Source of the DNA: a virus
Virus record (IMG/VR): IMGVR_UViG_3300036770_008028
Span: 1-64,000 of that record
DNA: 64,000 bases
Reading direction: 5' to 3' (one strand)
Under the pieces are notes generated by a model. That model saw nothing but the letters and a program-made list of their open reading frames with translations, searched no databases and was not told the origin of the DNA. Within the stretch, counting starts at the first letter, position 1. Each line of letters opens with the position of its first letter. This document shows positions 4,273 through 49,498 of this stretch, one piece after another. The position numbers and the translations under genes are program-made.

Positions 4273-4565
4273 CAGGCTAACTCCGTTACCGTGATCCGGC
4301 CAGCCTGGCTGACCTGTAGGAATGCCACTTTCTCTCCTGCCGTCACGGCAAAAAATTCTACCGAGCCCGCAGGCATCATGGCGCTGTTGGCAGTGGCAGT
4401 GGGATCACTGCCAACAGCCACGTAAGTATCTTGATTCACGGCCACACGCACTATGCTCACAGTGCTGCTCATAGCTGCGCTCTGCTGGCTGGCACCGGTG
4501 GTGGTGTATCCATAACTAGTACCTGGAATATAGGCGCCTTTGCGGACTGTTAGTACTGTGGACAT
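4272..4565 (-). CDS. Small structural-type protein, unknown function
   Basis: A 97-residue Ala/Thr/Ser/Val-rich protein without charged clusters, signal peptide or enzyme motif. The composition (SVEFFAVTAGEKVAFLQVS) suggests a compact beta-rich domain. It is related in style to the 90-residue protein at 5307-5579 and to the 110-residue one at 33373-33705: all are small beta proteins next to virion genes. It overlaps its neighbours on both sides by about one codon, so the genes 3466-5304 form one tightly packed unit. Confidence 0.5.
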   Translation of the reverse strand: MSTVLTVRKGAYIPGTSYGYTTTGASQQSAAMSSTVSIVRVAVNQDTYVAVGSDPTATANSAMMPAGSVEFFAVTAGEKVAFLQVSQAGRITVTELA

Positions 4566-4936
4566 TATCTAGGATATCCTTGGAATCCTTTTACCGGACT
4601 CTGTTTGTTTACTTCAGGATGTTCTCGGCTGCCATGATCAGGTACTGTGTGATCATATTCGGTATCTACTGTGCCAAAGGCCTGACGCATCATGTTGTGT
4701 TCGGCCTCGGTGTAAGGATGTGCTGTGTTGTAGCGATCATTCCAGGAACTGGCATCCATATCTACTGGGCGGGTGCTCTGGCCATCAGCGCAGGCTGCTG
4801 CCATCATGATGCGGTTGAGATTATAAGCACGATCTATACCCGAGTCTCGGAATCGCCAAGTACCCGGCATGGCTTTCTGGGCTGTTTTGCGCAGACGACC
4901 CTGATGCTTTTCTGCGAGGAATTCACGTGCTCTCAT
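4565..4936 (-). CDS. Head-packaged protein with capsid targeting sequence, paralog A
   Basis: A 123-residue protein opening MRAREFLAE-KHQ. The first nine residues match the T4 capsid targeting sequence pattern (T4 internal proteins begin MKTYQEFIAE), ending in the L-x-E site cut by the gp21 prohead protease. It should therefore be packed in the prohead and trimmed after residue 9. It is a paralog of the next gene: both share length, a LNR-MMAAA segment, a SW...HPYTEAE stretch and the C-terminal GF-GYPR. It overlaps that gene by 4 bp. The mature function is unknown; injected internal proteins of T4 protect DNA or modify the host, so such a role is possible. Confidence 0.7.
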   Translation of the reverse strand: MRAREFLAEKHQGRLRKTAQKAMPGTWRFRDSGIDRAYNLNRIMMAAACADGQSTRPVDMDASSWNDRYNTAHPYTEAEHNMMRQAFGTVDTEYDHTVPDHGSREHPEVNKQSPVKGFQGYPR

Positions 4937-5304
4937 CGAGGATATCCTTTGAATCCCACGATGGGACTGCGATCGTTGCCGCCTGGCGGCTCTTCTGAAT
5001 CAAGATCGCCTTTGTTTAAGTCCTTGTATGTGGCGCCCACTGCTTTATAGGCCTGTTTGAGGATTTCTACTTCTTCTTCAGTATAAGGGTGTGCGGATCG
5101 GGCCTTACCGATCCAACTTTCTGCATCAAGATCAGGTTCAAATGTGCCATCGGTCATGGCCGCTGCCATCATGAGCCTGTTCAAGGTATAGGTAGAATTC
5201 TGTCTGCGAGCATCACCGAACAGATGCAGACCAACCGTGCCCGACTGCTGGCGCTTGGTTATCTTGCCTCGCTTGATCTCGGCGATGAATTCTCGGGCTC
5301 GCAC
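4933..5304 (-). CDS. Head-packaged protein with capsid targeting sequence, paralog B
   Basis: A 123-residue protein opening MRAREFIAE-IKR, with a predicted gp21 cut after the I-A-E at residues 7-9. It is the tandem paralog of 4565-4936: same length, same TLNRLMMAAAMTDG core, W...AHPYTEEE segment and FKGYPR end, with different central sequence. I recognise this family as widespread in marine T4-like phages but know no function. The two copies have diverged well beyond recent duplication, so both are probably maintained by selection. Confidence 0.7.
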   Translation of the reverse strand: MRAREFIAEIKRGKITKRQQSGTVGLHLFGDARRQNSTYTLNRLMMAAAMTDGTFEPDLDAESWIGKARSAHPYTEEEVEILKQAYKAVGATYKDLNKGDLDSEEPPGGNDRSPIVGFKGYPR

Positions 5305-5306
5305 GA

Positions 5307-5579
5307 TCAGGCGCTCCTTACTGATACGGCGCCCGAACTTGTTGTACCAATCTCAGTGGCAGTGCAATTGCCTGTCACTGTGAGTTCATTGCCTACTCCT
5401 ACCCATACATCAGTCTGCCAGTTAGCCGGGATGCCAGCAGGTACCGAAAACAGATTGCCAGTGGTTGGTGTACCTGTGACGATATTCACTTGATATGCGC
5501 AGGCTTCTTCGGTAGCGATGCGGGCCTTGTCTGTGCCCCAGACTTGATTGGTAGGTGAAACGTATACATTTACGGGCAT
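5307..5579 (-). CDS. Small structural-type protein, unknown function
   Basis: A 90-residue protein (MPVNVYVSPTNQVWG...). The start is set at the ATG at 5579, which has AAGGA 8-12 nt upstream; the longer frame would run into the gene before it. Sequence features such as PAGIPANWQTDVWVGVGNELTVTGNCT suggest a small beta-sandwich. No known family is recognised. It sits between two capsid-targeted proteins and reads in the same direction. Confidence 0.5.
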   Translation of the reverse strand: MPVNVYVSPTNQVWGTDKARIATEEACAYQVNIVTGTPTTGNLFSVPAGIPANWQTDVWVGVGNELTVTGNCTATEIGTTSSGAVSVRSA

Positions 5580-5593
5580 TGTTATTTTCCTTG

Positions 5594-6808
5594 TTACCAC
5601 ATACGACACGACCAATATCGTGCGGTTGTACGATCTTTGGCGGTGTCACAGCGATGACGTGCGCGGAAACTACGGCGCCTTGCAGGATCGGATTTCTTGA
5701 TACTCAGTGTTTTTTCTCCGGCACGCTTGGCCGACTTGCCGCCGTGACCAAAGTTCACTTTTTTCACGTTGCCGGTCTTGGGATCTTTCACATAGACCTT
5801 GAACTTCTTGACATCTCCACGCATGGGTTTGCCCAGAGGCACTTTACGACCTTGGTATTCGGCTTCGTCCAAATCTCTGCCACCGTATTCGTCAACTATC
5901 TTATCCCACAGCATTTCAATCATCTTGTCATCATCGTTCATCACATCGTTCATGCCTTTGGATGCTAGCTCGTCTTTAAGTTCTTCCATCATGTTTTTCA
6001 GTACATCTGCTGTGCCTGGGCCTAACTCACCTTCTAGGGCAGCGATTAGATCTTCCTCGTCACCTCGATTGGCTAGGCTCTGCAGATCTATATCAATCTC
6101 GCTCATCATGCCTTCATCGATGGTCGCGGCTGTAGTGGGATCTTTCATCGTGCCCACAGGCGCTAGATCTGCGGCCTTGGCGGCCAATGGATCAGTATGA
6201 GCAGCATTGTTATAGGTAGTGACTGGCTGGTCTTCTTCTACTTTTTTGTAACCGGCCAGTTCCAGCATGCGATCCATGAAATCTTCTTCCACGGCTTGTT
6301 GTTCATTGACTTCTTCATCGCCGGCATAGAGTTCCACGATGCGATCCATCAAGATGTCAAGATTACGATACACATCATTTTGGAAGTTCTGACCACGGCG
6401 TTCCATTTCTGTCTCGATCTCATCCATCATGTGTTTGAGATATTCAGCAGTTTTGGGACCCATGTCGCCTTGCAGCGCACCTATCAGTTCGCCTGGATCT
6501 TGATTTTGTGCTATCTGTCTTAGATCCAGATCAATCTCGGCCATCACTCCTTCGGCCAGAGAGAATCCCGTGGCGCGACTCGAACCCACCGGACCGTAAC
6601 GTGCGATACGTTCTGACAGCATGCCTCTCTGATCCATGGCATCAAATGCTGATTCTGATATCGCCAGCACTATGCGCCGACCATCAGACTCTACAACCTG
6701 CGCTTCGACCAATTCATCAGGAGCCACCTCGATGTCAAGGTCGTCTCCTTCACGTGGTGTGTCGGCCCACTGTTCTGACTCAGTGAGATAATCTCGCAGA
6801 GTTTTCAT
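5594..6808 (-). CDS. Capsid-targeted protein with duplicated helical repeat and DUF5872-like C-terminus
   Basis: A 404-residue protein starting MKTLRDYLTE-SEQ, a T4-like capsid targeting sequence with an L-T-E gp21 site at residues 8-10. The start is chosen as the second of two adjacent ATGs because it aligns with the MKTLAQYLTE start of 8633-9235. It shares one base with the upstream stop (TGATG). Residues about 87-163 and 233-310 are two copies of one acidic helical repeat (E-I-D-L-x-L ... GDMGPKTAEYLKHMMDE / GELGPGTADVLKNMMEE ... DRIVELY / DKIVDEY). The last 85 residues are basic (KVYVKDPKTGNVKKVNFG ... FRARHRCD ... ARYWSCRMW) and match a domain frequent in marine T4-like phages, DUF5872 as I recall it. 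Probably an internal head protein. Confidence 0.7.
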   Translation of the reverse strand: MKTLRDYLTESEQWADTPREGDDLDIEVAPDELVEAQVVESDGRRIVLAISESAFDAMDQRGMLSERIARYGPVGSSRATGFSLAEGVMAEIDLDLRQIAQNQDPGELIGALQGDMGPKTAEYLKHMMDEIETEMERRGQNFQNDVYRNLDILMDRIVELYAGDEEVNEQQAVEEDFMDRMLELAGYKKVEEDQPVTTYNNAAHTDPLAAKAADLAPVGTMKDPTTAATIDEGMMSEIDIDLQSLANRGDEEDLIAALEGELGPGTADVLKNMMEELKDELASKGMNDVMNDDDKMIEMLWDKIVDEYGGRDLDEAEYQGRKVPLGKPMRGDVKKFKVYVKDPKTGNVKKVNFGHGGKSAKRAGEKTLSIKKSDPARRRSFRARHRCDTAKDRTTARYWSCRMW

Positions 6809-8622
6809 CATGAAATCCTTTTGTAGAGATCCATGAGACGAGTTTCTAGTTTTTGTTCAATATCTTCTGCCATGGCACCAAGATTGACTTGACCCGAAGG
6901 ACCTTTGCCGAGATTGCGCATGGCCAGAGGATTATCACCCATGTTGTTGGGATTGACCTGCAGTTTGGGACCGTTGAGTCCACCGGAGATCGTATTAGTG
7001 ATGTAGTCTGTGTCCATGACTTCTGTGTCATCACCAGAGTTGGCTAGATCTTCTTCCATGCGGCAGCGACCTTCGTGCATTTCTCCGCAGGAAGGGCATG
7101 CGTCATGATAGTGACTGGCTGACTCCATGCCGGCCAGTTTGAGAATCTGTGCTAATTTTACAGCATCTTCATCGGTGGCACTGACCGATAGGCTTTTCTT
7201 GCCGTTTTCATCCATGCTCATGTTGATGCTCATACCTTCGGTAAGCATACCGAGTTTGCGTTCAAAACTTTCTGCGATCTGGCCTTCGTATACACCTTTG
7301 CCAAACTGCATGCCGCCCTTCTTAGACTTGGGTGCTTGCTCGGCTGTGGCCACTGAACCTGCCACAGTGGTTTCTTCCACTTCTTCTTTGTCTTCTTCTT
7401 TGGCCTTTTCAGGCAGACCTTTTTCTTTGGTCTTGGCAAACTTTTTCAGTTCTTTGCTGGGCATGTCGGCCATCTCTTTGGAAGCACCGCGCAGTTCACT
7501 CTTGGGGATGTCGCCTTTTTTAGCAGCATAAGCGATGCCGGCAGCGGCACGCTGGGCCTTGCTGACAGCTTTTTCGGCCATGAACTCTTCGTCATCCACT
7601 TCTACATCTACATCCATCTCTTCTTCGTCAGGATTGGCTTTCATGTAGTCGCGGGCTGAATCGATGTATTCTTTGGCCAGCACTATCTTCTTCTGCACCC
7701 ACTCTGGCAAGTTCTCATCATCGTCCAGGATGTCCTGCAGTTCTCGGGCAGCGTCTTCAATGGTGCGGGCCTGGCTCTTGGCCATCTCGCCTTCTTCATC
7801 GTACTCGTCTTTGTCGTAGTCTTCTTCCATGCGCATCAGTTTGCTACGACCCGAGGGGCCTTTGGCTCCCAGGCTACGCTTTGAACCCTTGGGGCGACCA
7901 CGGCCTCGCTTCACAACATTGCCTTCCGCATCCTGCTCTTCAGGAGCATCCACAGGTTCCAGTGTCGTGACTCTGCGGCGACCATCTAATTCTTGATAGC
8001 GTTTGCGGGTGCCATCCTTGAATGTCACAACATAGTCATCGCTGCGACCTTCTACTTCGGCACCGATGCCACGATACTGCGCTTTCTTGTCCATGAACTC
8101 CACATAGCCTTCGTCCATGCGTTTTTCATCAGAAGTGTCTCCAGTGACACGGTATACCTTGTCGTTCAATCGGAAGGTGGGTTTGCCTGCTTTGATAGCA
8201 GCCATACGAGCCTGTGTAAATTCGTTGCCTTCTTCTACATCTGCTTCGTCGATACTTTCTTTGGCACGCAGTTTGGCCAGCACGGCACCGGCCACTTTCT
8301 CGCCACGCTCTTTGCTACCATAACGTTTGGCGGCATCAGCAGCGATTTTACTAAACTGCTTGCCAGGTTTGCCGATGTCCTTGCCAGCACGTGCGGCCTT
8401 GGCCGAATAGTTACTTTCGTCCGTGAGCGATGATACCACTGCACTGGCCGCACCTCTCAAGGCCGTCGCTGCCAAGGGTCCAAGCTCTTTGACCTGTTGC
8501 TTGGCAGCCTGGCTGATGGGCTCTTCACGATCTCCATCACGGTCGATGTCGGGAAAATCTGGTTTGCTGCCTTTGCCTTCCAGCAGTTTCATTTTGTTGA
8601 GTATATCATACATGTTGTTCAT
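6808..8622 (-). CDS. Large head-associated protein with AT-hook and DUF3008-like segment
   Basis: A 604-residue mosaic of strongly charged segments. Residues 83-120 (GKPGKQFSKIAADAAKRYG...) are a basic helical motif common in phage proteins. Residues 239-249 (RGRGRPKGSKR) are a textbook AT-hook DNA-binding motif. Residues 265-350 are very acidic. Residues 351-406 (AVSKAQRAAAGIAYAAKKG ... FAKTKEKGLPEK) match the DUF3008 pattern. C509, C512 and C520 (CPSCGEMHEGRC) form a partial zinc-knuckle-like cluster. The N-terminus NKMKLLE-GKG contains an L-x-E site that gp21 could cut. Location among capsid-targeted genes, plus the DNA-binding motif, suggests it contacts packaged DNA; this is inference. 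Confidence 0.6.
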   Translation of the reverse strand: MNNMYDILNKMKLLEGKGSKPDFPDIDRDGDREEPISQAAKQQVKELGPLAATALRGAASAVVSSLTDESNYSAKAARAGKDIGKPGKQFSKIAADAAKRYGSKERGEKVAGAVLAKLRAKESIDEADVEEGNEFTQARMAAIKAGKPTFRLNDKVYRVTGDTSDEKRMDEGYVEFMDKKAQYRGIGAEVEGRSDDYVVTFKDGTRKRYQELDGRRRVTTLEPVDAPEEQDAEGNVVKRGRGRPKGSKRSLGAKGPSGRSKLMRMEEDYDKDEYDEEGEMAKSQARTIEDAARELQDILDDDENLPEWVQKKIVLAKEYIDSARDYMKANPDEEEMDVDVEVDDEEFMAEKAVSKAQRAAAGIAYAAKKGDIPKSELRGASKEMADMPSKELKKFAKTKEKGLPEKAKEEDKEEVEETTVAGSVATAEQAPKSKKGGMQFGKGVYEGQIAESFERKLGMLTEGMSINMSMDENGKKSLSVSATDEDAVKLAQILKLAGMESASHYHDACPSCGEMHEGRCRMEEDLANSGDDTEVMDTDYITNTISGGLNGPKLQVNPNNMGDNPLAMRNLGKGPSGQVNLGAMAEDIEQKLETRLMDLYKRIS

Positions 8623-8632
8623 TGCAAGATCC

Positions 8633-9235
8633 TTATTTCTGGAAGCCAGTGGCTGGTCGGGGCGGTCGTTTGACCGTGGTCATGGGGCTTTTCACACCCA
8701 TGGGCAAATCGTTAGTGGTTTCAGCCGGAGGTGTACGTCCACCAGCCACGGTCCATGTGGCCTCGGCCGCTGAGTTCTTGACCACTTCTTTGTCTGCACC
8801 CACTGCCGAATAATCTTTCTTAAGATCGTTTTGCTCTTTGGTATTGGCAGGATACGGTGTGTTCAGCAAAGGATCGCCCTGTGTTTCTATGCCCATGAGT
8901 TCGCGATCCATGCCTTCGGCCCAGTTCAGTTGATTGGTGCAGATGCGATCGGCATTCAGTCCCAACAACTCTGCGATCTGTTGTATTTGTGGAGGAGTGG
9001 CCGGATAACGCACAGTGACATCGATCATGGTCACACGTTCATTTGCGAAGGCTGGAAAGTCCTGCGGACGGCTCAGTATGGGGGTCTTCTTGGGTTCAGA
9101 AATCTTCACAGGATCAAACTTTTTGAGTTTTTCCTGGAACTGCTTCATGAACTCAGAGTCCACGTCACCCACGATTTTGATGCGATAATCGAAGGTTTTT
9201 TCGCTTTCTGTGAGGTATTGGGCAAGTGTTTTCAT
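8633..9235 (-). CDS. Capsid-targeted virion protein, unknown function
   Basis: A 200-residue protein starting MKTLAQYLTE-SEK, nearly the same targeting peptide as at 5594-6808 and similar to the T4 internal-protein leader; gp21 should cut after LTE (residues 8-10). The body (FDYRIKIVGDVDSEFMKQF ... VTVRYPATPPQIQQIAELLG) looks like a small alpha/beta domain. The last 60 residues are Pro/Thr-rich and low in structure. It is the first gene of the 1.2-9.2 kb run: a late promoter (TAAATA at 9258-9253) and AGGAAC precede the ATG. I recognise it as conserved in marine T4-like phages, function unknown. Confidence 0.65.
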   Translation of the reverse strand: MKTLAQYLTESEKTFDYRIKIVGDVDSEFMKQFQEKLKKFDPVKISEPKKTPILSRPQDFPAFANERVTMIDVTVRYPATPPQIQQIAELLGLNADRICTNQLNWAEGMDRELMGIETQGDPLLNTPYPANTKEQNDLKKDYSAVGADKEVVKNSAAEATWTVAGGRTPPAETTNDLPMGVKSPMTTVKRPPRPATGFQK

Positions 9236-15961: not shown

Positions 15962-16306
15962 ATGAGACCGCTATGCAAGGTCTGCGGCAAGAACGCCGCA
16001 GCGATCAACGGATATCACAATGACAAAGTGTACTATCGCAGTCGATGTAATGCCTGCATACGACGAGGTAAGAAACTCAAACCTCGTCCGCCGCGTTGGA
16101 CAGCATCAGGCTACAAAAAGAAAACCGCATGCGATCGCTGCGGTTTCCATGCAAGACACACCAGCCAACTAGTGGTATATCATGTCAACGGAGATCTCAA
16201 TGACAGCGAACTGCGCAATCTCAAAACAGTTTGTCTGAATTGCATAGCAGAAATCACGCGGCTGGATCTTCCTTGGCGGCGCGGAGATCTCGAACCAGAT
16301 CGTTGA
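15962..16306 (+). CDS. Zinc-finger/HNH-like protein conserved in T4-like phages
   Basis: A 114-residue basic protein with four Cys pairs: CKVCGK (C5, C8), CNACIR, CDRCGF and CLNC. The central part (KACDRCGFHA ... YHVNGDLNDSELRNLKTVCLNC) has the shape of an HNH zinc-ribbon domain: a Cys pair, an H-x-N/D-G-D segment, then N-L-x-x-x-C-x-x-C. The usual catalytic HH is not obvious, so nuclease activity is uncertain. It is the only plus-strand gene between 1 and 21 kb. Its last 53 bp overlap the 3' end of the dNMP kinase gene on the other strand. Confidence 0.65.
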   Translation: MRPLCKVCGKNAAAINGYHNDKVYYRSRCNACIRRGKKLKPRPPRWTASGYKKKTACDRCGFHARHTSQLVVYHVNGDLNDSELRNLKTVCLNCIAEITRLDLPWRRGDLEPDR

Positions 16307-16886
16307 TCTGCTGATAGAGTTCGTCCAGCGACCCGTCATTGTTGACGATACGATCAAAATCTGTGCCGGCCCAGGCCCATTCACTGGCGTGTGGCAATTC
16401 GGCGGGCTGAGGTGCTTGACCAGCAAAATACTGTTGCACTTGCTGGAACCACGCAGGATCTTCACCGCGCACTACCCTGATCACTATGCCTCCCTGGGCA
16501 CGGATGGCCTGTATTTCGTTGGGGAAACGGCAATCAGAGATCACGATGTCATCGGCACTCTTGCGCAGTTTGTTTTCCAGGCTAGCGATCCAGATGTCGT
16601 CATGGAAACCGTTGCGGCATACTTCTGTGCCCCAGTATTGTAGTATCCAACGTGGAGTGATGGTCTGATCTAGCCGCTCACTCCACCACTCGTCGGGCTG
16701 CTCGCGCCATTCTCTGCTGCTACGAGTACGGCCTTCCAGCATGTCTCGGTCCCATCCAAACACTGCGCTCACGGCATCTTTCAGCGTGGCAGCGAACGAA
16801 TCTCTACGGAACTCATGTATGTTCACAAGATAGTCCGCGATGGTGTCTTTGCCCGAGCCAATCAGGCCGCACACTCCTATGATCAT
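16254..16886 (-). CDS. 1: Deoxynucleoside monophosphate kinase (gp1-like)
   Basis: A 210-residue P-loop kinase. Walker A is residues 7-15 (GLIGSGKDT). IADYL and the FAATLKDAVSAVFGWDRDMLEG segment, followed by TPRWILQYWGTEVCR, match the T4 gp1 and related dNMP kinase pattern. DDIVISDCRFPNEIQAI gives the Walker B-like strand and the DxRFxNE motif of this family. It phosphorylates dNMPs to dNDPs for phage DNA synthesis. The start is the ATG at 16886; a longer frame exists but runs through the previous gene. It overlaps that gene by 4 bp. Confidence 0.85.
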   Translation of the reverse strand: MIIGVCGLIGSGKDTIADYLVNIHEFRRDSFAATLKDAVSAVFGWDRDMLEGRTRSSREWREQPDEWWSERLDQTITPRWILQYWGTEVCRNGFHDDIWIASLENKLRKSADDIVISDCRFPNEIQAIRAQGGIVIRVVRGEDPAWFQQVQQYFAGQAPQPAELPHASEWAWAGTDFDRIVNNDGSLDELYQQINDLVRDLRAAKEDPAA

Positions 16887-17638
16887 GTTGCTTTCCAGTG
16901 ATTCAATCGACGGAGAAGGTACTGTGCTAACTTCAAATGTGCTTCGGGTCCTGGGTGTCCGTAATCTCCGTACACGTCTGCATCCACCGGTTCTAATCCT
17001 TGATCTAGTGCCCAAGGCAAGAAAGCAAATTTCCACGGGTCAATGAAATTTGCGTCAGACAACAAATAATTGTAAAATGGCGAAATAAATTTATCGTTGC
17101 AATCAACAGCCGGATGCGCAGGCCAGAGGTCTGCGTTGTTCCAGATCAGATATTTCAGTCTATGTTGTCGGCAGAACGCAGAAAACATCGCCAAATCTAC
17201 TAGAAGTTCTGTGACCTGGCTTTCTTTACTCTGCCATAAAAGATGCTGTTTATACCAGTCTCTTACCGCGCGATCGGTGTATTCACATTCTTTTTCGATA
17301 TCTCCGGTATAGTAATCTTGCTTTTTGCCCCATATTCTCTGTGCAGTATAAATCGGATGAAAATGTCCATCGGTGTCTACGGCGGGAATTTCAGGTTGCC
17401 ATAATTCTGTGCGGAAGATAAAAGACAGTCCAATCAACACCAGGATATTTCCATCAGTGTGCGTGGTTAAGTCAATTAAATCTCTTAGACTGGAGCGAAT
17501 AATTCTACGATTACAACTACCTTCTATATGTTTGTTGATCAAGTGAGCGCCAAAATGGTCGGCGATCGCCGAGCCGTAACAGGTCGACGGCTTCCCTATC
17601 GGCAGTCCAAAACTGCAGCCATTTGCGTAAACTATCAT
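16883..17638 (-). CDS. SGNH/GDSL-hydrolase-like protein
   Basis: A 251-residue protein starting MIVYANGCSFGLPIG, where G-C-S-F replaces the GDS block of SGNH hydrolases, and ending with DYGHPGPEAHLKLAQYL, the D-x-x-H block (here D-Y-G-H-P-G) carrying the catalytic Asp and His. Between them are IEGSCNRRIIRSSL (an N-containing block) and a strand NILVLIGLSF. These four features make the fold likely. Phage proteins of this type are common near nucleotide or surface-modification genes but their substrates are unknown. The start is chosen at the ATG overlapping the previous stop by 4 bp. Confidence 0.6.
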   Translation of the reverse strand: MIVYANGCSFGLPIGKPSTCYGSAIADHFGAHLINKHIEGSCNRRIIRSSLRDLIDLTTHTDGNILVLIGLSFIFRTELWQPEIPAVDTDGHFHPIYTAQRIWGKKQDYYTGDIEKECEYTDRAVRDWYKQHLLWQSKESQVTELLVDLAMFSAFCRQHRLKYLIWNNADLWPAHPAVDCNDKFISPFYNYLLSDANFIDPWKFAFLPWALDQGLEPVDADVYGDYGHPGPEAHLKLAQYLLRRLNHWKAT

Positions 17639-18171: not shown

Positions 18172-18201
18172 AGTATAGCACATCGCACTGCGGACGGTCT
18201 A
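18172..18201 (-). promoter_or_regulatory. Possible extended -10 sigma-70 promoter before the DEDD exonuclease
   Basis: TGCTATACT on the minus strand is an extended -10 box; TAGACC, 18 bp further up, is a weak -35. It would drive the exonuclease, SGNH-like and dNMP kinase genes before late time. Confidence 0.35.
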
Positions 18202-18477
18202 GCGGTATTTGTTCAGGCGAGCAGAAAGTTTGCTCAAAGGATTGATCTTTTTGGTGCGTTTGGTCCTGCGTGCCTGGCGCACCTTGGTCCTGGCACGGGT
18301 TCGTTTCATGCGTTGCATCTGGGCCACATCTGGCGCTTGTCCGCAATCTCGGATATCGGGCACAGTGCGATTTTTCCTAGGGCCACTTTCACAGCGCCAA
18401 CTGAGGGTGACTCGGCCAGTGCGGGGGTTTCGCTTGAATACCAAACGATGTTCTGTGACGAATTCCCAGGCTCGCAT
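18199..18477 (-). CDS. Small basic capsid-targeted protein
   Basis: A 92-residue, very basic protein. The ATG at 18477 is chosen because it gives MRAWEFVTE-HRL, which matches the MRAREFLAE/MRAREFIAE leaders of the genes at 4.6-5.3 kb and ends in a V-T-E gp21-type site, and because it falls right after the gp13 stop. The body (LSWRCESGPRKNRTVPD) is a conserved motif I recognise from small proteins of marine T4-like phages. The C-terminal half (KRTRARTKVRQARRTKRTKK) is almost all Arg, Lys and Thr. It probably binds DNA inside the head. Confidence 0.7.
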   Translation of the reverse strand: MRAWEFVTEHRLVFKRNPRTGRVTLSWRCESGPRKNRTVPDIRDCGQAPDVAQMQRMKRTRARTKVRQARRTKRTKKINPLSKLSARLNKYR

Positions 18478-36385: not shown

Positions 36386-36661
36386 TCAGTGGTCAAACCG
36401 ATCACGGTCCTCGGCTTCGCTGTGCGTGATCACTTCCTGGATGAGTTCTTCTGTGGTCCAACCAGAATTTGAAAGCGTAGCAATCGCATCAACAAATAGA
36501 GTGAATACCGCCGCAGTGTAATCAAAATCCACTTCCTGGCCTTCTAGTGCATAGAGTTGTTCCAGTGCCGCACGGGCGCGTTCGGTGCTTTTATTGATGC
36601 TGAATGTGTAGATGGTGCCGTCTTCCAGCACTTCGGTACAGCGATCTGGATCTGTGTTCAT
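36386..36661 (-). CDS. Small acidic protein, unknown function
   Basis: A 91-residue acidic protein (MNTDPDRCTEVLEDGTIYTFSIN...). FDYTAAVFTLFVDAIATLSNSGWTTEELIQEV is a helical segment. The pattern resembles small proteins in T4-like marine phages; no function can be given. It overlaps the stop of the homing endonuclease gene upstream by 4 bp, so it depends on that transcript. Confidence 0.5.
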   Translation of the reverse strand: MNTDPDRCTEVLEDGTIYTFSINKSTERARAALEQLYALEGQEVDFDYTAAVFTLFVDAIATLSNSGWTTEELIQEVITHSEAEDRDRFDH

Positions 36662-37425
36662 GACGTTCCTTTCAGGGTTCGACAGTTGGTGCCGTGCCAG
36701 CGGGGGTAGGTGTTGACAGCGATCATTTTCTGGCAGTGGGGGCAGAGCTGTTTGGGTTTGACCTTGCCCTTATTGGCTTCAGCACGCCGCGCTTTTTCTT
36801 CGTCGGTCTGTTTACGACCACGTATGCGGTCTCCGATCTTCTGGCGTGTTGATTCTAAAACTTCTACACCCCAACGATTATTCTTTTCTCTAGTCTTGCT
36901 TTTAGACATGTTAGCAAGCCATTCTTCACTGAATGGTGCTCGCTTTTTACCTTTTTTGCTGTTGGTGATTTTTTGTCTTGCTTCTTCCTGCTTGGCTCCA
37001 TTGTTTTCGCCGAGTATGGCTTCTCGTTGGCGCTGTTTGCCCTCTTCGCTGCGAAAGAACTTATCACCATACATTGGATTATTTTCACCTCGAACTTTTT
37101 CACTTTGTAATTTTGAGTATTCTAACTTGATGCTTTCATATACACGAGAGGTAATTTTTGTTTTGTATCTTTTTTGTCCGGGATTGTCAGCTCTCATCAT
37201 ACGGAGAGCATTCAGCATCTTATAATGGTCTTCTCCTGTAGTCATTTTAATCAACAACCAATGGCAGATAAAATGCTCTCGGGGTGTGATAAATGCGATG
37301 TTTTCTTTGTCATCTGTACCACCAAGACTGCGTGGTTTAATATGGTGTCGTTCAAAAGGTGGTTCAAGGACCCTGTCTTTAGCCCGATCTATAATTTGAT
37401 TGTACCATTTGGTGTATTTGTTCAT
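36658..37425 (-). CDS. HNH homing endonuclease with NUMOD motifs
   Basis: A 255-residue protein. The HNH motif is ERHHIKPRSLGGTDDKENIAFITPREHFICH (His-His, Asn, then H). Behind it, GENNPMYG and GAKQEEARQKITNSKKG are NUMOD3-type DNA-binding repeats, followed by a lysine/arginine-rich segment and a C-terminal zinc pair CPHCQK ... C. Such genes are mobile: they cut an intron- or gene-less allele and are copied in. This one is free-standing, right behind the gp23 terminator. The start is the ATG at 37425, 5 nt after a TAAATA box. The coding sequence is more A-rich than its neighbours, which fits recent transfer. Confidence 0.85.
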   Translation of the reverse strand: MNKYTKWYNQIIDRAKDRVLEPPFERHHIKPRSLGGTDDKENIAFITPREHFICHWLLIKMTTGEDHYKMLNALRMMRADNPGQKRYKTKITSRVYESIKLEYSKLQSEKVRGENNPMYGDKFFRSEEGKQRQREAILGENNGAKQEEARQKITNSKKGKKRAPFSEEWLANMSKSKTREKNNRWGVEVLESTRQKIGDRIRGRKQTDEEKARRAEANKGKVKPKQLCPHCQKMIAVNTYPRWHGTNCRTLKGTS

Positions 37426-37430
37426 AGTGT

Positions 37431-37436
37431 TATTTA
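37431..37436 (-). promoter_or_regulatory. Late promoter, leaderless type (HNH gene)
   Basis: CATAAATAACACT-ATG: TAAATA ends 5 nt before the start at 37425. Confidence 0.5.
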
Positions 37437-37469
37437 TGTAAGTTAGCACGAAATAACAATTTAGTCAAC

Positions 37470-37519: not shown

Positions 37520-38731
37520 TTAGGAGAATGACAAATTGCTTACGGCTATCTCCCCGACATAGTCGCCGGCGTTGCCGAACGAACTCGCGGTGTTTGTCAA
37601 TTCTATGTAGCCATACCTCGTCATAAAGCTGACCACTGGTTCGAACGTTGTGGGATCCAGCACAACACCAGAACTCATCAAAGGAATGTAAGGGCAGTAG
37701 AACGCAGCAGCGTCAGCCTCTGACGAACCTTTGTAGCCAACCAGCACAGGTGTGCTATCGCTGGCATAAGAGTCAACGAACACACGCATCGCGCCGTTCA
37801 GTGTACCAACAAACTTGGTGTTGGTGGGTGCTTCGAACGTACCTTCTGTGGTACGAGCAAAAGCGGATGTTGTTGCGGACTGGAGCACAGTCAACGAAGC
37901 AGGCGAAACAACTGCCCAGTTACCAGCACCGCGACGTGTGCGCTGTGCGATCAGGTTAGCAACACGGTTGATCAGAACTGCCAGGGCGGCATGCTCGTCA
38001 CCAACGAATGTGGCTGTACCAGAAACGGTAGCTTGGTTGTATGTGAACTCGGTCTGGGCCAAGCTGCGGAGGCTCAAGAGGATCTCTTGATCGATCTCAG
38101 CAGTGATTTCTTGGGCCAGGGCTGCCATGATTTCGGCCTCAACGTCAATGCCATGCATGGCTTGTGCGTCTTGAGCGGCTTCAAATGTCCAGCGAGCCTG
38201 GAGTTTACGTGTTTTTGCTTCCACAGCCTGCTTCAGGATCTGTACGGAGATCTGACGACCGCCAGTACCTTCCATGATAGCAGTGTCAGCACCAGTGTAA
38301 CGGCTCTGGGTGGTTCCAACTGTACCAGAAGTCACAGAACTAGCAGACGAGTACGCTGTAGCGATCTTGAATGGGCTCAGTGCTTCTTCACCTGCTGTGG
38401 TGCTTGTGGCAGCAGCAGAGTTGTCAGTCATGTTGTTGGCATAACGCACACGCAGGGTGTGGATCTGACCAACGGGACCTGTCATGGGCTGCACACCGAC
38501 GATTTCGTTGGCGATAACAGTGGGCATGACACGTCGGATCACTGGCAGGATCACGCGGTTGAGTGTAGCGATGTTGCCGCTAACAGTTGATCCAGCACTG
38601 GCGTTCTCTTTGAGGTACTTGCGAGTGTTTTCCAGGATCACATTCATGGAGTTGCGACGGTTGCCTTTGAGGCCTTCAAGGAGGGCTTCTTTGGTTTCGT
38701 CCCAACGGCTTTCTAACAGTTCTTGTGACAT
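37520..38731 (-). CDS. 23: Major capsid protein gp23
   Basis: A 403-residue T4-like major capsid protein. After a helical N-terminal propeptide, the segment NTRKYLKE-NASAG contains an L-K-E site (residues 40-42) where gp21 should cut. The HK97-fold core follows: IATLNRVILPVIRRVMPTVIANEIVGVQPM, GPVGQIHTLRVRYA, RWTFEAAQDAQAMHGIDVEAE, then WAVVSPASLTVLQ and FYCPYIPLMSSGVVLDP near the end. It ends with YGYIELTNTASSFGNAGDYV. AAGGAG precedes the ATG. No late promoter is visible in the 21 bp gap after gp22, so it is read with the prohead operon; a strong terminator follows. Confidence 0.95.
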   Translation of the reverse strand: MSQELLESRWDETKEALLEGLKGNRRNSMNVILENTRKYLKENASAGSTVSGNIATLNRVILPVIRRVMPTVIANEIVGVQPMTGPVGQIHTLRVRYANNMTDNSAAATSTTAGEEALSPFKIATAYSSASSVTSGTVGTTQSRYTGADTAIMEGTGGRQISVQILKQAVEAKTRKLQARWTFEAAQDAQAMHGIDVEAEIMAALAQEITAEIDQEILLSLRSLAQTEFTYNQATVSGTATFVGDEHAALAVLINRVANLIAQRTRRGAGNWAVVSPASLTVLQSATTSAFARTTEGTFEAPTNTKFVGTLNGAMRVFVDSYASDSTPVLVGYKGSSEADAAAFYCPYIPLMSSGVVLDPTTFEPVVSFMTRYGYIELTNTASSFGNAGDYVGEIAVSNLSFS

Positions 38732-38752: not shown

Positions 38753-39841
38753 TTATAGACCTGCCAGGCGCTTGATGTCGATCACGTTGGAACGGTCTTC
38801 TTCTTGCGGCTTGACGGTTTTATCACCAGTTACTACGCTTACAGACTCAGCGATCACTTGACGGGCTTTCGCTGTTTTGCCTTCGGCTAGCACTGCTGGT
38901 AGATACTTCTCAAAAGCGTTTTTCAGACGTGCTGTCTGTACGCTTTCCAAGAGATTCTTCATGATCTCGCGCTTGTCCTCATTGAGGGGCGCTAGGAGTT
39001 CTTCCATCGTGTTGGCACGCTGGTTGTTCTCGCGGATCTGACGGATCTCACGCTCTTTGGATTCAACGAGTACTGCTTTTTCCTCGGCGACCCGGGTGGC
39101 TTCTGCCAACTGCTGATTTTTAGCCTCGATGGCCTGGCGCAGTTTGCGGACTTCGGCGTTTTCATTGAGATGAGTAGCGCCAAATTCTGCTGCGTAGGCT
39201 TCGAAAATACGACGACCAAAATTGTTCTCGCGAGCGATCTTGATGTCTTCATGCAGTTGTGAGAGTTCGGCCTTGAGATGCTTGCTAACAGATTGGGTCA
39301 TCTTGACAGCAGACTCTTTGACGAATCTGGCTTTCAATGACTCGAGTTTGCCACGGGCTTCGCTGACCAGGCGTACTTTGGTTTCCACCAAATCACGTTT
39401 GTCCTGAGCAAATTCCATGATCTCTTCAGCAAGAGCACGTACAACAAATTTTTCCAATTTCTGGAGTCCTTCGTTGTGCTGCTTGCGATCTCGGCGCAGT
39501 TCGCCAATCTCTTCAGCAAGTTTGGTCACCATGAAGTCGTTGAACTTCGTGGCAGACTCTTTCATCTTGCCTTGGAACTTGACTCGATCTTCGGCCAGGG
39601 CTTGCCGTTCGGCAGCCACAGCAGAGATTTCTGCGTTGAGACCTTCTGTTACCATGCGATCCAGGGCTTCCACCATTACTGATTTGTCATGCTCATAGCG
39701 TTGTGCAAACTCTTCACGGAGTTCTGCACGCACCTGTTCACGAGCTTCGGTCATCTTGGCTTCCCAAGCTTCCGAGATCTCCTTGCGGGTATCCTCGTTG
39801 ATCAGATCGCTATCTAGTAGTGGTTTGAGTGCATCTAACAT
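38753..39841 (-). CDS. 22: Prohead core scaffold protein gp22
   Basis: A 362-residue, almost fully helical and highly charged protein. Long coiled-coil heptads (AEIGELRRDRKQHNEGLQKLE...) run through most of the length, as in T4-like scaffolds. The N-terminus MLDALKPLLDSDLI and the mid region FGRRIFEAYAAEFGATHLNE are conserved in gp22 of related phages. Many L/I-x-E sites would allow gp21 to degrade it during maturation. It sits between gp21 and gp23 exactly as in T4. TAGGAG precedes the ATG. Confidence 0.9.
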   Translation of the reverse strand: MLDALKPLLDSDLINEDTRKEISEAWEAKMTEAREQVRAELREEFAQRYEHDKSVMVEALDRMVTEGLNAEISAVAAERQALAEDRVKFQGKMKESATKFNDFMVTKLAEEIGELRRDRKQHNEGLQKLEKFVVRALAEEIMEFAQDKRDLVETKVRLVSEARGKLESLKARFVKESAVKMTQSVSKHLKAELSQLHEDIKIARENNFGRRIFEAYAAEFGATHLNENAEVRKLRQAIEAKNQQLAEATRVAEEKAVLVESKEREIRQIRENNQRANTMEELLAPLNEDKREIMKNLLESVQTARLKNAFEKYLPAVLAEGKTAKARQVIAESVSVVTGDKTVKPQEEDRSNVIDIKRLAGL

Positions 39842-39850
39842 GCGTTTCTC

Positions 39851-40474
39851 CTAGATTTTGAGATCTTTGATGAGTTTCATTACTTCACTCTTCAAGTATC
39901 TCTGTACTTTGTTGTCTCCCCCAGCTTCCTTGGCCATTTCAAAAACTTTATGACCATATTTCATGTTCATAAGACTTTCGTAAATTGCTTTGGGATATGC
40001 GTTGGGCGCACTGGGTTGGGCAACAACATCGACAGTGACTATTTCAAAGTCACTGACATGTCCGTTAGCCTCGTTAACGTTTCCGCTACCGCGGCTTGAA
40101 ACTCCTAATTTTACACCTGATTCCAACATGGTCTTGACCAGTTGACCCATGGGTGTGGGCAGAATCTTTAATTTTCCAAAACCGTTAGGGCCATCCATCC
40201 ACATTTCTGTGATCATATGGCTCACACGGTCAAGATTGACTTTGAGATCATCGGGATGATCTACTTCACCAAGCACAGAGTATCCCGACGTGATCTGTTC
40301 GTTCAGTGTTTTCACAGCACGCTCGATCTCGTTCACAGGATACACACGCTCATTGGCATTCTTGACACCACCTTGGATGCAGATGCCTTTCATGTAGAGA
40401 TCCTTACCTTCGGTGCCTTCCACCACTATGCGGGCAGCATCAAAAGTAAGGTTTTCTCTGAGGTAAAGAGCCAT
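39851..40474 (-). CDS. 21: Prohead protease gp21
   Basis: A 207-residue serine protease of the T4 gp21/herpes assemblin type. H73 (GEVDHPDD) is the catalytic histidine. S126 or S127 in VKLGVSSRGSG is the nucleophile. An Asp in FEIVTVDVVAQPSAPNA completes the site region. It is made in the prohead core and cuts after L/I-x-E in gp23, scaffold and internal proteins. The capsid-targeted proteins in this window all carry such sites. AAGGACCACAGG precedes the ATG. Confidence 0.93.
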   Translation of the reverse strand: MALYLRENLTFDAARIVVEGTEGKDLYMKGICIQGGVKNANERVYPVNEIERAVKTLNEQITSGYSVLGEVDHPDDLKVNLDRVSHMITEMWMDGPNGFGKLKILPTPMGQLVKTMLESGVKLGVSSRGSGNVNEANGHVSDFEIVTVDVVAQPSAPNAYPKAIYESLMNMKYGHKVFEMAKEAGGDNKVQRYLKSEVMKLIKDLKI

Positions 40475-41454: not shown

Positions 41455-41673
41455 TCACACAACGGGTTGCGCAGGAGGAGAGTATTGTTGCTGTATGCGC
41501 TTGATTTTTTCCCGAAATTCGTAGGTTCTCACATCGTTCATCTTACGAAGTTTATTGAGTTGTCGCAGGGTGAGTTTGGTCTTGCGGAGATCACCCAGGC
41601 GTGGTTGTGTGTTATCCTGCGCCACATCTTGATAGGCACTAGGTTCGCGCTGATAGAGTTCGTTCAGGATCAT
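41455..41673 (-). CDS. Small basic protein between gp20 and prohead core
   Basis: A 72-residue protein (MILNELYQREPSAYQDVAQDN ... LRKTKLTLRQLNKLRKMNDVR). This LRKTKLTL-x-LNKLRKMND-R pattern is familiar from a gene that follows gp20 in marine T4-like phages. It occupies the position of T4 gene 67 but is basic rather than acidic, so it is not a simple gp67. The start is the ATG at 41673, 4 nt behind a full TATAAATA late promoter located inside the end of gp20. Confidence 0.6.
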   Translation of the reverse strand: MILNELYQREPSAYQDVAQDNTQPRLGDLRKTKLTLRQLNKLRKMNDVRTYEFREKIKRIQQQYSPPAQPVV

Positions 41674-41677
41674 GCAG

Positions 41678-41685
41678 TATTTATA
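41678..41685 (-). promoter_or_regulatory. Late promoter, full consensus, leaderless type
   Basis: TATAAATACTGC-ATG: the box ends 4 nt before the start at 41673 and covers the last codons of gp20. Confidence 0.75.
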
Positions 41686-43468
41686 CTGTGGGTGCTGCGC
41701 CCACAGCCGGTGGTGCTGCGCCAGCTGCGGGTTGTTGACCTGGTGCAGCACCAGGTTCTCCAGCAGCGCCTACTTCAGTGCCGCCAGCTAATTCCTGTCC
41801 CATGGTGATGTCGGCTTCGAGATCACCGGGAATCACGCCCACGGATCGTAGGTCTTGTCCGGTAGCGCTGGGTGCGTCAGGTTTGCTGCGTTCTTCATGC
41901 CAGGCCTGTTCATTTTCCACAATTTCATCTTCTGTGAGTCCTAGATAGCGTTTGAGCAAGAACCGCTTGGAGAGATAAGGCACTTGCTCCAGTTGTGTGA
42001 ATGTGCTTACGCGGCTGGTATCCAGTTCGGCTTCGCGATAACTGGCGAAGTTCTGGGGAGGATTGAACTGGATGTTGAACAGGCCAGAGTCGATGTTGAA
42101 ACCTCTCCAGCGCAGGAACATCTTGAATTCGTCGTCCAGTTTCTGTATGATCAGTCGCTGCAAGCGTTCGCAGTACTGATTGAAGCGATATTCCTGGATC
42201 AGCGCTGTGCCCACACGACCATCATTGAGCGGACGATCTGAATCGTCAGGACCGGTGGGCAAGTACGAACTGGGCACACGCAATCCACGACACATTTTGT
42301 TGTTGAAGTATTTGAGATCGTCAATCTCACCAAGATTTGAACCACCCGGAAGTGTTTCCACAGAGGATCCGCGGCCGTCCGCGGTCTGGGGAAAGTAGTA
42401 GTCTTCGTTGATAGAGAGCGGATTGTAACTGCTGTCCATCATGTGTCTGCCATCCGAACCACCGCTGTGTGTGGGTATGCGGCGCTGATGTATTTCGTTT
42501 TTTACCCGTTCAACAAAGGCCATGGCCATGTGCGACGGCATGTTACCCACATCGATCTTGAAGATCCTGCGCTCTGGAGCGCGGGCCACACGATAGATCA
42601 GCACGGAATCTTCCAAGAGTTCTTTCTGTTTGAACACCCGGTAGATGGTTTCCAGCACGCTCTGTCCAAAAGGCCAGTAGTAATCCAGTCCTTCGGTGAG
42701 ACTGAGGTGCACGATGTGCTTGGCGTCTAACACTGCTTCGTTCATGGCAGCAGAAAATCTGTTGCCCGCTGCACCTTGACCGCCGGCCCCGGCGTTGGGT
42801 ACGTTGTAGGTATACGGGGTAGTCACACCAGATGCCGGAGGATTGGCCTGATAATCTGTGGTGGTTTTGGCCGCGATAGTGAGATTCTGGAAATTGGGGT
42901 TGATGTCGCGGATCACGTATTGCTCTGGACGCTTGCCTTCCGACTCGTTGACAATCACACGGGCCACTTTGGTCATGTCTACCCAATACATCTCAAATGT
43001 TTCTGGATCGCGAACAAATACCTGATCACCATACTTGATGGTATTGCGGAAGATCTTGAAGATGCGCTGATCCAGTTTGTTGAGTTTGACCCATTGCTGT
43101 AACTGTTTCTTGATGATTTCTACTTCGTTGTCCGTGGGTTGATCCACATACTGCACGCAAAAAGGCACCGGTTCGTTGGGTGTGGGTTGCGTGGCAAACT
43201 CCGCGATGATATCCAGACAGGCATTGACTTCGGAATCCATGTCCATCTGCTCGTATTGGTTATAGCGTTCTATGCGATTGGGATGGCCGGTGTACACTTC
43301 GGGCAGACGGCTGGCATAGTTGCGATAGACCACATCTGCATGTCCTTGCAGAGGATCTCTACCATCGTTACGCCCGTATCCAGGCAGGCCGTCGCTGCCA
43401 CGACCGCTGAGTGGGCTGAGTTGCCCACCGGTGTTTGCCACTTTGAAATATTTTTTCCACCCAGCCAT
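41681..43468 (-). CDS. 20: Portal vertex protein gp20
   Basis: A 595-residue portal protein. Conserved gp20 blocks are visible: NRIERYNQYEQMDMDSEVNACLDIIAEFAT, RIFKIFRNTIKYGDQVFVRDP, HIVHLSLTEGLDYYWPFGQSVLE, RAPERRIFKIDVGNMP, MCRGLRVPSSYLPTG and GVIPGDLEADITMG near the end. It forms the dodecamer at one capsid vertex, nucleates the prohead and is the DNA channel. The C-terminus is a low-complexity Ala/Gly/Pro/Gln tail (GAAGEPGAAPGQQPAAG). A late promoter (GGTAAATAC) lies 21 nt upstream with AAGGAT as ribosome site. Confidence 0.95.
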   Translation of the reverse strand: MAGWKKYFKVANTGGQLSPLSGRGSDGLPGYGRNDGRDPLQGHADVVYRNYASRLPEVYTGHPNRIERYNQYEQMDMDSEVNACLDIIAEFATQPTPNEPVPFCVQYVDQPTDNEVEIIKKQLQQWVKLNKLDQRIFKIFRNTIKYGDQVFVRDPETFEMYWVDMTKVARVIVNESEGKRPEQYVIRDINPNFQNLTIAAKTTTDYQANPPASGVTTPYTYNVPNAGAGGQGAAGNRFSAAMNEAVLDAKHIVHLSLTEGLDYYWPFGQSVLETIYRVFKQKELLEDSVLIYRVARAPERRIFKIDVGNMPSHMAMAFVERVKNEIHQRRIPTHSGGSDGRHMMDSSYNPLSINEDYYFPQTADGRGSSVETLPGGSNLGEIDDLKYFNNKMCRGLRVPSSYLPTGPDDSDRPLNDGRVGTALIQEYRFNQYCERLQRLIIQKLDDEFKMFLRWRGFNIDSGLFNIQFNPPQNFASYREAELDTSRVSTFTQLEQVPYLSKRFLLKRYLGLTEDEIVENEQAWHEERSKPDAPSATGQDLRSVGVIPGDLEADITMGQELAGGTEVGAAGEPGAAPGQQPAAGAAPPAVGAAPTV

Positions 43469-47487: not shown

Positions 47488-47924
47488 CCTATCAGTTTGC
47501 ACGCATAGATCTCAGCAAAACCAATTATACAGAATCTGTAGAGTGGACATATCTCAGCAAGACTGATTGTCAAGTAGAGCAATGCCTAGAGATCTATCGT
47601 ACCTACTGTATCTACAAACACTTTGGATCGGTGATGCCTTTGTTTGTGAGCAGATTCAGAGATCCCATGGCCGATCTAATCGGTTACTACGATGGCGGCA
47701 ACATGGTGGCATTCAGCCTCATACGCAGGTATGATGAAAAAAATGCCCTGTGCGATCAGTTTGCCTGGACCTATCACAATCCTCGATTGCGTCTTGGCAT
47801 TGAAACTATGAAAACAGAATGTGCCATCTACCGGGCGCGAGGGTTTGACTATCTCTACCTTGAGCAGGCGCATCTCTACAAACATGAAATAGAGGGATTT
47901 GAAATTTTAGGACCAATGACATGA
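47484..47924 (+). CDS. GNAT-fold protein resembling the C-terminal domain of arginyltransferase (ATE)
   Basis: A 146-residue protein. The segment DLIGYYDGGNMVAFSLIRRYDEKNALCDQFAWTYHNPRLRLGIETMKTECAIYRARGFDYLYLE (in parts) follows the ATE/LF-transferase GNAT pattern: a strand with the substrate name, a [F/Y]-x-Y-x-x-[D/N]-P stretch, then L-G-x-x-x-[M/L]-x-x-E-x-x-x-[A/Y]-[R/K]-x-x-G-x-x-Y-[L/Y]-Y-L. ATEs add an amino acid from aminoacyl-tRNA to protein N-termini. The short length means only the transferase-like half is present. It starts with GTG overlapping the preceding stop and is followed by an overlap with the next gene. Confidence 0.55.
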   Translation: MTYQFARIDLSKTNYTESVEWTYLSKTDCQVEQCLEIYRTYCIYKHFGSVMPLFVSRFRDPMADLIGYYDGGNMVAFSLIRRYDEKNALCDQFAWTYHNPRLRLGIETMKTECAIYRARGFDYLYLEQAHLYKHEIEGFEILGPMT

Positions 47925-48256
47925 GCGACTTATACACCATATGGGCAGACAAAGAAGGCGATATATCAGACCTTGAATGGGTCAACGGGATGAAAAGTTT
48001 TTTTGATCACTTGATCTCTGAAGGCAAGATGCTGACTTACAGGATCACTCGTTGCAAGATGGGCTTCCGCAGCATACCTGATCTTCCGGAGTGGATGATC
48101 ATCATGGAGTTCCGAGACATGGCACAGATGGATGCCGCATTCCGGAGGGTGGCACCGCTTGAGGGTGAACTAGAATCCAAGCACCGATCATTCAATCAAT
48201 TTGTGGCCGGTAACATACAGCATGCGCTATTCCGAGATTGGCCCGATCGGTTCTAG
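47921..48256 (+). CDS. DUF6614 family protein
   Basis: A 111-residue protein with the pattern of DUF6614: MSDLYTIWADKEGDISDLEWVNGMKSFFDHL, LTYRITRCKMGF, EWMIIMEFRDMAQMDAAFRRV and NIQHALFRDWPDRF. I know this ferredoxin-like small family mainly from alphaproteobacteria. Function is unknown. It is the last gene of the 45.9-48.3 kb unit, and its last 30 bp overlap the end of the convergent radical SAM gene, with no terminator between them. Confidence 0.7.
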   Translation: MSDLYTIWADKEGDISDLEWVNGMKSFFDHLISEGKMLTYRITRCKMGFRSIPDLPEWMIIMEFRDMAQMDAAFRRVAPLEGELESKHRSFNQFVAGNIQHALFRDWPDRF

Positions 48257-49498
48257 CCATTCATTCCAGTGCGTGCAGTTTTCTTTCCAGCTATGAGCAG
48301 GATCATACCAATCTAAAAAACCGCGTAGTGCCAAAAGATGGTCGTTGCAAAACACCTGATTTTCTAACTGCGATATAAGTCCCATGAGATCGATCAAGGG
48401 CTCTTGAGAATAACAAGGAGGTACCACAGGCACAGGATATTCTTGCAGTGCCAGCGCTGTGCGTTTCAAGATGTGCGAAGGCACACTTGACAGAGACATG
48501 TAATCTGGAGTATCCAACAAACCAAATCCCATCGGTATGCCATGTTGCCAACACCACTGCATGAGATCTTTAATCGTCTGCACTGTCAATGCCTGGAGAG
48601 TATGATGCACATAGATACAATCAGTGCCGTAAACAGATACAAAGTTCTCTATGTTACGAGATATTTGATCCCAATTACTACCGCGTCTGATATAGTCCTG
48701 GACCCACCCAATACCCTCCAGGCTAAGCACAAAACTCACTGATTGGAAGTGAGAAAACTGCTGCTTTGCCTTGACAAGATCCTGGCTGCCATTGGTAACA
48801 AACAATAGATTGGTTTTGCGAGCGCGATCAGCAGGCAGTGCGCCGAGTATCTGTCTTGTTTCCTGGTCCAGCAAAGGTTCCCCGCCTAGTATTTTCAGAA
48901 ACTTGGGCCGTTGGCGCAGTATGTCACGCAGTAGATGTCGATTGCTGTTGTCTACAAAAATCGCCCTGGCTCGATCAAGATAGCCTGGATCGGTAGACAG
49001 TCTAGACTGCACACAGGCGTGTTCTGTGTTTTTTTTCCAAATTGCATATATTTGGCTGCTGTCCATGGGATTGCACATTGCACAGGCAAAATTGCATAGA
49101 TTTGAGATTTTGATATCGGCCGATATCAATAGATCACTTTGCCAGTCTTGTTTGTTTTTAAAATATGCGGCAAGCCATGTCTGTTGCAGATCGCTGGCAT
49201 TCTTCGTCACTGTGTTGTTGACGATGTTTCTTAAACTGTGATGTCCGCTGTCCTCCTTTTGCCAGCATCTACGACATTCTGGCAATCGCACTCCTTGCGA
49301 TAAATTTTGTCTTAGATACTGAGAATAGTCAGACTGATACCAGTGATCGATATCGTGCTCTCTGAGATTGTATTCTGTCTGTCCTTGATAGTTTGATGCG
49401 CCATGGTCAATTTCACAGCAACAACGAAAAGATCCATCATTGGAATTTCGTAACTGAAACCAAGGCGCTGCACAGAAAGTGTTTGAATTTATATCCAC
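48227..49498 (-). CDS. Radical SAM enzyme with N-terminal SPASM/twitch-like cysteines, second copy
   Basis: A 423-residue protein. The radical SAM motif is C135-x3-C139-x2-C142 (CNFACAMC), with LGGEPLLD as GGEP motif. In front are C9 (CAAPW), C26-C28, C75 and C78, an N-terminal auxiliary cluster. It shares this plan with the gene at 56-1183 (both CAAPW, CC, C-x-x-C, then the core) but the sequences are otherwise quite divergent. The start is a GTG 4 nt behind a TAAATA box. Neighbours on the other strand include the ATE-like protein, so a joint role in protein or peptide modification is possible but unproven. Confidence 0.85.
   Translation of the reverse strand: MDINSNTFCAAPWFQLRNSNDGSFRCCCEIDHGASNYQGQTEYNLREHDIDHWYQSDYSQYLRQNLSQGVRLPECRRCWQKEDSGHHSLRNIVNNTVTKNASDLQQTWLAAYFKNKQDWQSDLLISADIKISNLCNFACAMCNPMDSSQIYAIWKKNTEHACVQSRLSTDPGYLDRARAIFVDNSNRHLLRDILRQRPKFLKILGGEPLLDQETRQILGALPADRARKTNLLFVTNGSQDLVKAKQQFSHFQSVSFVLSLEGIGWVQDYIRRGSNWDQISRNIENFVSVYGTDCIYVHHTLQALTVQTIKDLMQWCWQHGIPMGFGLLDTPDYMSLSSVPSHILKRTALALQEYPVPVVPPCYSQEPLIDLMGLISQLENQVFCNDHLLALRGFLDWYDPAHSWKENCTHWNEWLEPIGPISE

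Follow-up and report, generated by a model that had tools for sequence, protein, structure and literature searches.

The 64,000 nucleotides analysed here (hereafter the window) form the start of a virus record of 157,498 bp from the T4 superfamily (IMG/VR record IMGVR_UViG_3300036770_008028) and contain five genes whose products open with one type of short leader and continue into mostly unrelated bodies. Their sequences make it quite likely that the leaders are capsid-targeting sequences (CTSs) of the T4 type, that they are processed by the gp21 prohead protease encoded in the same genome and that the proteins behind them are cargo of the capsid. A first-pass annotation, which was made from the DNA letters, had already read them as T4-type leaders on cargo, and this reading gains partial support from the length of the leaders, the spacing of their key residues, their L/I-x-E ending, the presence of gp21 and the conservation of the leader separately from the body. 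The placing of a conserved leader on diverse bodies is an established concept for the CTSs of T-even phages (PMC3012670, PMC9026906).

All five leaders were confirmed at the proposed starts, on the minus strand, and follow either the pattern MRA-x-EF[LIV]-x-E or the pattern MKTL-xx-YLTE. Two genes overlapping by 4 bp encode proteins of 123 amino acids (aa). Protein a (4565..4936) begins from an ATG with MRAREFLAE (4910-4936) and has its predicted cut before KHQGRLRK, and protein b (4933..5304) begins with MRAREFIAE (5278-5304) from a GTG start which has TAAGGAG upstream, its predicted cut falling before IKRG. The leader MKTLRDYLTE (6779-6808) opens a 404-aa protein (5594..6808), and MKTLAQYLTE (9206-9235) opens a 200-aa protein (8633..9235) with a predicted cut before SEKTFDYR. 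The fifth gene (18199..18477), which adjoins a neck-protein gene, encodes a very basic protein of 92 aa beginning with MRAWEFVTE (18451-18477). After residue 14 the bodies cluster separately, so that a single leader type stands on unrelated bodies. The bodies had all been described as unrelated, and different families do follow the leader, but there are four of them and not five because the two 123-aa proteins, the tandem pair noticed earlier, are paralogs with 45% identity. The protein said to contain a duplicated repeat is the 404-aa one (residues about 64-163 and 208-310), and the extremely basic one is the 92-aa protein, with an isoelectric point (pI) of 12 and a net charge of +23 after the leader. 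No Pfam or PHROG match linked the bodies to the families of the T4 internal proteins (IPs) IPI, IPII and IPIII or of Alt, and a fold search with the structure model of a 123-aa protein (predicted template modelling score, pTM, 0.52) gave no significant match.

Viral contigs supplied homologs of the 404-, 123-, 92- and 200-aa proteins. Among the 98 sequences of the 123-aa family, pairs whose bodies share 20-30% identity are 61% identical in the leader and 8% identical in the next three residues, and an alignment of 56 sequences has eight invariant columns, M1 and E9 among them. The 92-aa family keeps E5, F/I6, V/I/L7 and E9 in 14/14 sequences; in both of these families the nine-residue leader has its key positions shifted by one relative to the ten-residue form. 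In the 200-aa family F4, Y7, L8 and E10 are kept in 74-76 of the 79 relatives, and positions 3, 5, 6 and 9 are variable. The conserved positions 4, 7, 8 and 10 are those mapped in T4 IPIII, where mutagenesis assigned residues 4 and 7 to targeting and residues 8 and 10 to processing (PMC9026906). The leaders are not merely the N-terminus of one ordinary family, the outcome that had been named as refuting the prediction: four unrelated families carry them and the leader outlasts the linker. Judged from these alignments, the leader tag is evolutionarily real and is conserved apart from what comes after it.

Within this genome the evidence that the leader exceeds chance is moderate. Seven pattern matches were counted in the record against a mean of 1.6 and a maximum of 6 in 400 shuffles, and two of the seven are spurious internal starts. 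The matches at 39337 (a TTG inside gp22) and at 136511, both internal starts, were discarded, as was an MKSFFDHLISE start at 47990, which lies inside a DUF6614 protein that begins at 47921. The comparative evidence is decisive: in the loci of the relatives, which were selected through these same families, 265 distinct N-termini match the pattern where 8.9 are expected. Six small phages without a Peptidase_S77 (S77) protease gave no match in their 343 genes, and from 1,423 candidate starts in T4 the pattern picks only IPII and IPIII, missing IPI, whose cut lies further in. A simple gene caller lost real GC-rich genes of the window (three of the five leader genes), so its counts per genome are lower bounds. 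Its looser, general pattern was barely above expectation and was left out of the evidence.

The presence of gp21, the presumed cutter, was borne out by a Peptidase_S77 profile match (E-value 7e-29, at 39974-40414) in the gene at 39851..40474, minus strand. This gene sits in a T4-type head module on that strand, in the order gp20-like, gp21, gp22-like and gp23. The gp20-like gene (43468-41681) was recognized from gene order and a direct reading of its sequence, and the gp22-like scaffold protein (38753..39841), the presumed partner of the leaders, was recognized from its position and its coiled, charged sequence, also read directly. The major capsid protein gp23 (37520..38731) has a predicted gp21 site YLKE/NASAG (the slash marks the cut; Glu codon at 38606-38608), and that of phage PA5oct has FLVE/NASAG at the equivalent place. 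The [FY]-L-x-E ending is that of the leaders, which backs the specificity assumed for gp21. Among sequenced phages it is PA5oct and the Rak2-like jumbo phages, and not the T-even phages, whose major capsid proteins come nearest (62-66% identity).

The 404-aa protein had been taken for a leader followed by one body. Its leader part holds; its body is not single but divides into an acidic spacer and a basic domain, the latter having a predicted cut site to itself. The spacer of 305 residues (pI 4.1, net charge -49) contains the repeated unit (about 6320-6619 and 5879-6187), and is followed by a predicted gp21 release site L-D-E (5864..5872; DLDE/AEYQGRK) and by an 89-aa domain (5597..5863; pI 10.9, net charge +20), the predicted mature cargo. 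This domain matches the phrog_7595 profile (E-value 3.6e-15, residues 314-404). A 604-aa neighbour (6808..8622), which was absent from the earlier list, belongs to the same set, and the two proteins look like carriers of a small basic domain. It begins with MNNMYDIL and has an LLE/G site at 8578-8586; in its family L-x-E/G or L-x-E/S follows the start at a variable distance in 17/18 distinct sequences. Within it, a DUF3008 domain (about 7408..7572; PF11450, 62.4 bits against a curated cut-off of 24, residues 352-406) is preceded by a predicted release site M-A-E at 7573-7581. All these features are on the minus strand.

These borders are conserved across relatives. The sequence upstream of the phrog_7595 domain is mostly unalignable, yet [LIVMF]-x-E abuts the domain in 37 of 43 nonredundant contexts and the strict [LI]-x-E in 24 of 43, the background per position elsewhere in these proteins being 0.043 and 0.020, respectively. 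At the DUF3008 border hydrophobic-x-E is present in 21/21 nonredundant contexts (background 0.016). The model of the phrog_7595 domain (predicted local distance difference test, pLDDT, 82) had no match in the PDB at E<=0.001 and in BFVD matched only its own family and fusions. The DUF3008 domain of the window is, among the genomes found, closest to free-standing proteins of Alphaproteobacteria (Azospirillum and Roseomonas among them; 60-62% identity), a kinship that offers a possible hint at the host; a tblastn search of phages and plasmids with this domain returned no match.

Both domains also exist alone, and then begin where the cut is predicted. Free phrog_7595 proteins start with MAKYQGRTVKLNKP or MAKYKGR (Aegir, HTVC111P, HTVC202P), to be compared with LxE/AEYQGRKVPLGKP in carriers, and free DUF3008 proteins start with M[APS]KAESKKQQ (Azospirillum, Roseomonas), to be compared with LxE/KAVSKAQR. 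The phrog_7595 domain outside a carrier was found in six small phages, none with a detectable S77 protease, and as a fusion in four sequenced phages (C48C1, HTVC008M, immuto and Melnitz-3), all four with S77; the jumbo phages with a homolog of the 200-aa protein have it as well (3/3). At three loci (L137, L139 and L153) the domain of the 123-aa family is internal to longer proteins and only the L-x-E is retained (ELQE/A, SLEE/S). In Roseobacter phage CRP-6 (locus L260, 1138-1827) phrog_7595 is fused to a prohead protease of the XkdF type (PF14550, E-value 7e-18), and the structure search added A0A6J5T6Y7, a second protein named XkdF in which this domain occurs. Such fusions link the domain with the head on grounds independent of the T4-type phages. 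C48C1 also has five leader-like genes packed closely together (locus L341, 4824-11405, about 61.8-68.4 kb). Their bodies are unrelated: one is DUF6267, one is DUF5824, one resembles a cytidylyltransferase, one is the phrog_7595 domain and one is a very basic protein of 123 aa.

Indirect virion data come from PA5oct, in whose record the proteins detected by electrospray ionization tandem mass spectrometry are flagged. The flagged proteins include EST35_0150 (MKINDIITE) and EST35_0238 (MKIKDILVE), both of which have an intact leader, and also EST35_0202, the homolog of the 200-aa protein, which is annotated as structural. The homologs of the latter in Atu_ph07 (MKTLQDYLTES) and Vibrio phage 2.275 (MKDLNTILTES) retain LTE/S. 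The deposited start of the Atu_ph07 protein AUZ94910.1 (locus L009, 8001-8756) lies 29 codons downstream of the ATG that opens MKTLQDYLTE, so that the annotation omits the leader; for this phage 131 virion proteins are on record (PMC6102473), and its homolog is predicted to begin, once cut, with SKKCYTYHVK. A homolog of EST35_0150 (phrog_13986) is encoded in the window at 41455-41751, minus strand; its N-terminus, MILNELYQRE, matches the leader poorly.

The conservation of leaders and junctions, their fit to the gp21 rule, the co-occurrence with gp21 in sequenced phages and the charge split are established by this analysis. Binding to gp22, cleavage and packaging we infer as follows. During prohead assembly the leaders would bind the gp22-like core and so bring in the proteins attached to them; inside the prohead gp21 would cleave after the Glu of hydrophobic-x-Glu and leave the mature proteins free in the head. 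In the 404- and 604-aa carriers the targeting N-terminus and a long acidic chain that can be cut would retain phrog_7595 or DUF3008, each a small basic domain, until gp21 liberates it at a further hydrophobic-x-Glu junction. On this reading, small released proteins are probably part of what the phage packs into its capsid. The basic products may stay with the DNA, and some would probably reach the host as T4 IPI, IPII, IPIII and Alt do; the chances that some products enter the host with the DNA are about balanced, and a role of the cargo in host takeover or counter-defence is a more tentative suggestion, on the doubtful side.

Several observations weigh against the interpretation of the leaders as processed targeting signals on cargo. 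A strict L or I at the third residue before the cut (P3) is present in only about half of the junctions, V and M being common. The 123-aa and 200-aa proteins, with mature pI of 8.2-8.8 and 6.4, are not strongly basic, unlike the T4 IPs. Several large metagenomic contigs with fused phrog_7595 show no S77; these contigs may be fragments, so the association of fusion and S77 is clean only for the named records. Finally, the leader of EST35_0202 has decayed to MKSFRDYYDAS, and the presence of this protein in the virion without the final Glu indicates that cutting may be dispensable for it.

A conceivable explanation, to which we give appreciably less than even probability, is that the leaders do direct their proteins to the prohead and are removed, and that the mature products then stay in the virion as structural parts of the head or neck, or as factors of assembly, and are not delivered. 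The conserved place of the 200-aa gene in a late module beside head-completion and terminase-like genes, the structural annotation and virion detection of its PA5oct homolog and the neck gene next to the 92-aa gene would all suit this explanation, whereas many of the bodies vary or are duplicated and the small basic products resemble the T4 internal proteins, which are ejected (PMC9026906). For the two long proteins it could be argued that they belong with gp67, gp68 and gp22 to the disposable proteins of the prohead core, and that their basic domains are assembly fragments instead of cargo. Both are indeed acidic with several L/I-x-E sites, and in T4 the core proteins are broken down to many fragments, most of which leave the head (PMC9026906). 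We regard this as unlikely, since the basic domains are strongly conserved and the acidic chain is not, and since phages with no gp21, and bacteria in the case of DUF3008, have the domains as free-standing genes, which points to a function of their own. It is very improbable that the leaders are unconnected with head targeting and are a short helical N-terminus common by chance or for translation. The pattern is short and its excess in this genome is just 7 against 1.6, but it is carried by four unrelated bodies, outlasts the adjacent linker, fits the positions known from T4 genetics, is absent from S77-negative phages and is IP-specific in T4.

Read as targeting signals on capsid cargo, the leaders resemble those of T4 IPI, IPII, IPIII and Alt (MKTYQEFIAE) in having ten residues with hydrophobic residues at 4, 7 and 8 and Glu at 10, in standing as one leader on unrelated bodies and in sharing the genome with gp21. 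The bodies, however, show no relation to the IPs or to Alt, leaders often take a nine-residue MRAxEFxxE form here and two of the members are long carriers with predicted internal release sites; the likeness is one of sequence criteria, with cleavage and injection as predictions. The carriers share with T4 gp67, gp68 and gp22 the nature of acidic precursors with several L/I-x-E sites and predicted fragmentation by gp21, but differ in containing, besides, a conserved basic domain with a predicted release site at its border. In the ejection proteins of phiKZ-like phages and SPN3US a gp21-related prohead protease trims propeptides after Glu (PMC9026906), but those capsids and propeptides are distant and the leader found here is the short T4 form. 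The DarB protein of phage P1 is also sent into the capsid by an N-terminal signal (PMC9024508), one that is longer, different and part of another assembly system.

Elsewhere in the window, all on the minus strand, a likely homing endonuclease gene of the HNH type (36658-37449), judged from an HHIKPRSLGG motif, adjoins gp23, and a protein with a CNFACAMC motif (48227-49498) resembles a radical S-adenosylmethionine enzyme. At 16254-17036 a protein similar to deoxynucleoside monophosphate kinases is encoded; its PA5oct counterpart EST35_0194, also located by the neck gene, was detected by mass spectrometry in virions.

What is known of T4 CTSs comes mainly from the T-even phages. From the sequences compared here, what appears to be new is the leader tag in this jumbo-related lineage and a carrier architecture with conserved release borders. 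No direct description of CTSs outside the T-evens or of the carrier layout was found in the open-access literature, of which coverage was incomplete, nor any paper there naming DUF3008, DUF5824 or DUF6267. It is an even question whether large phages of the T4 superfamily use polyprotein-like carriers, in which a disposable, acidic, targeted chain imports small autonomous basic domains (phrog_7595, DUF3008 and perhaps DUF5824) that gp21 frees as cargo, and whether such domains circulate between phages and bacteria, gaining a carrier and an L-x-E border where gp21 is present and standing alone or joined to other head proteases elsewhere.

Mature internal proteins of T-even phages can act in counter-defence, IPI against GmrSD and IPIII for growth on ECOR17 (PMC9391042). 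If the tag marks head cargo across environmental phages of the T4 superfamily, it would provide a sequence rule for recognizing proteins which are co-packaged and perhaps injected. Such a rule would draw on the large unknown fraction of the genomes of this superfamily, and a functional context is proposed with it for phrog_7595 and DUF3008.

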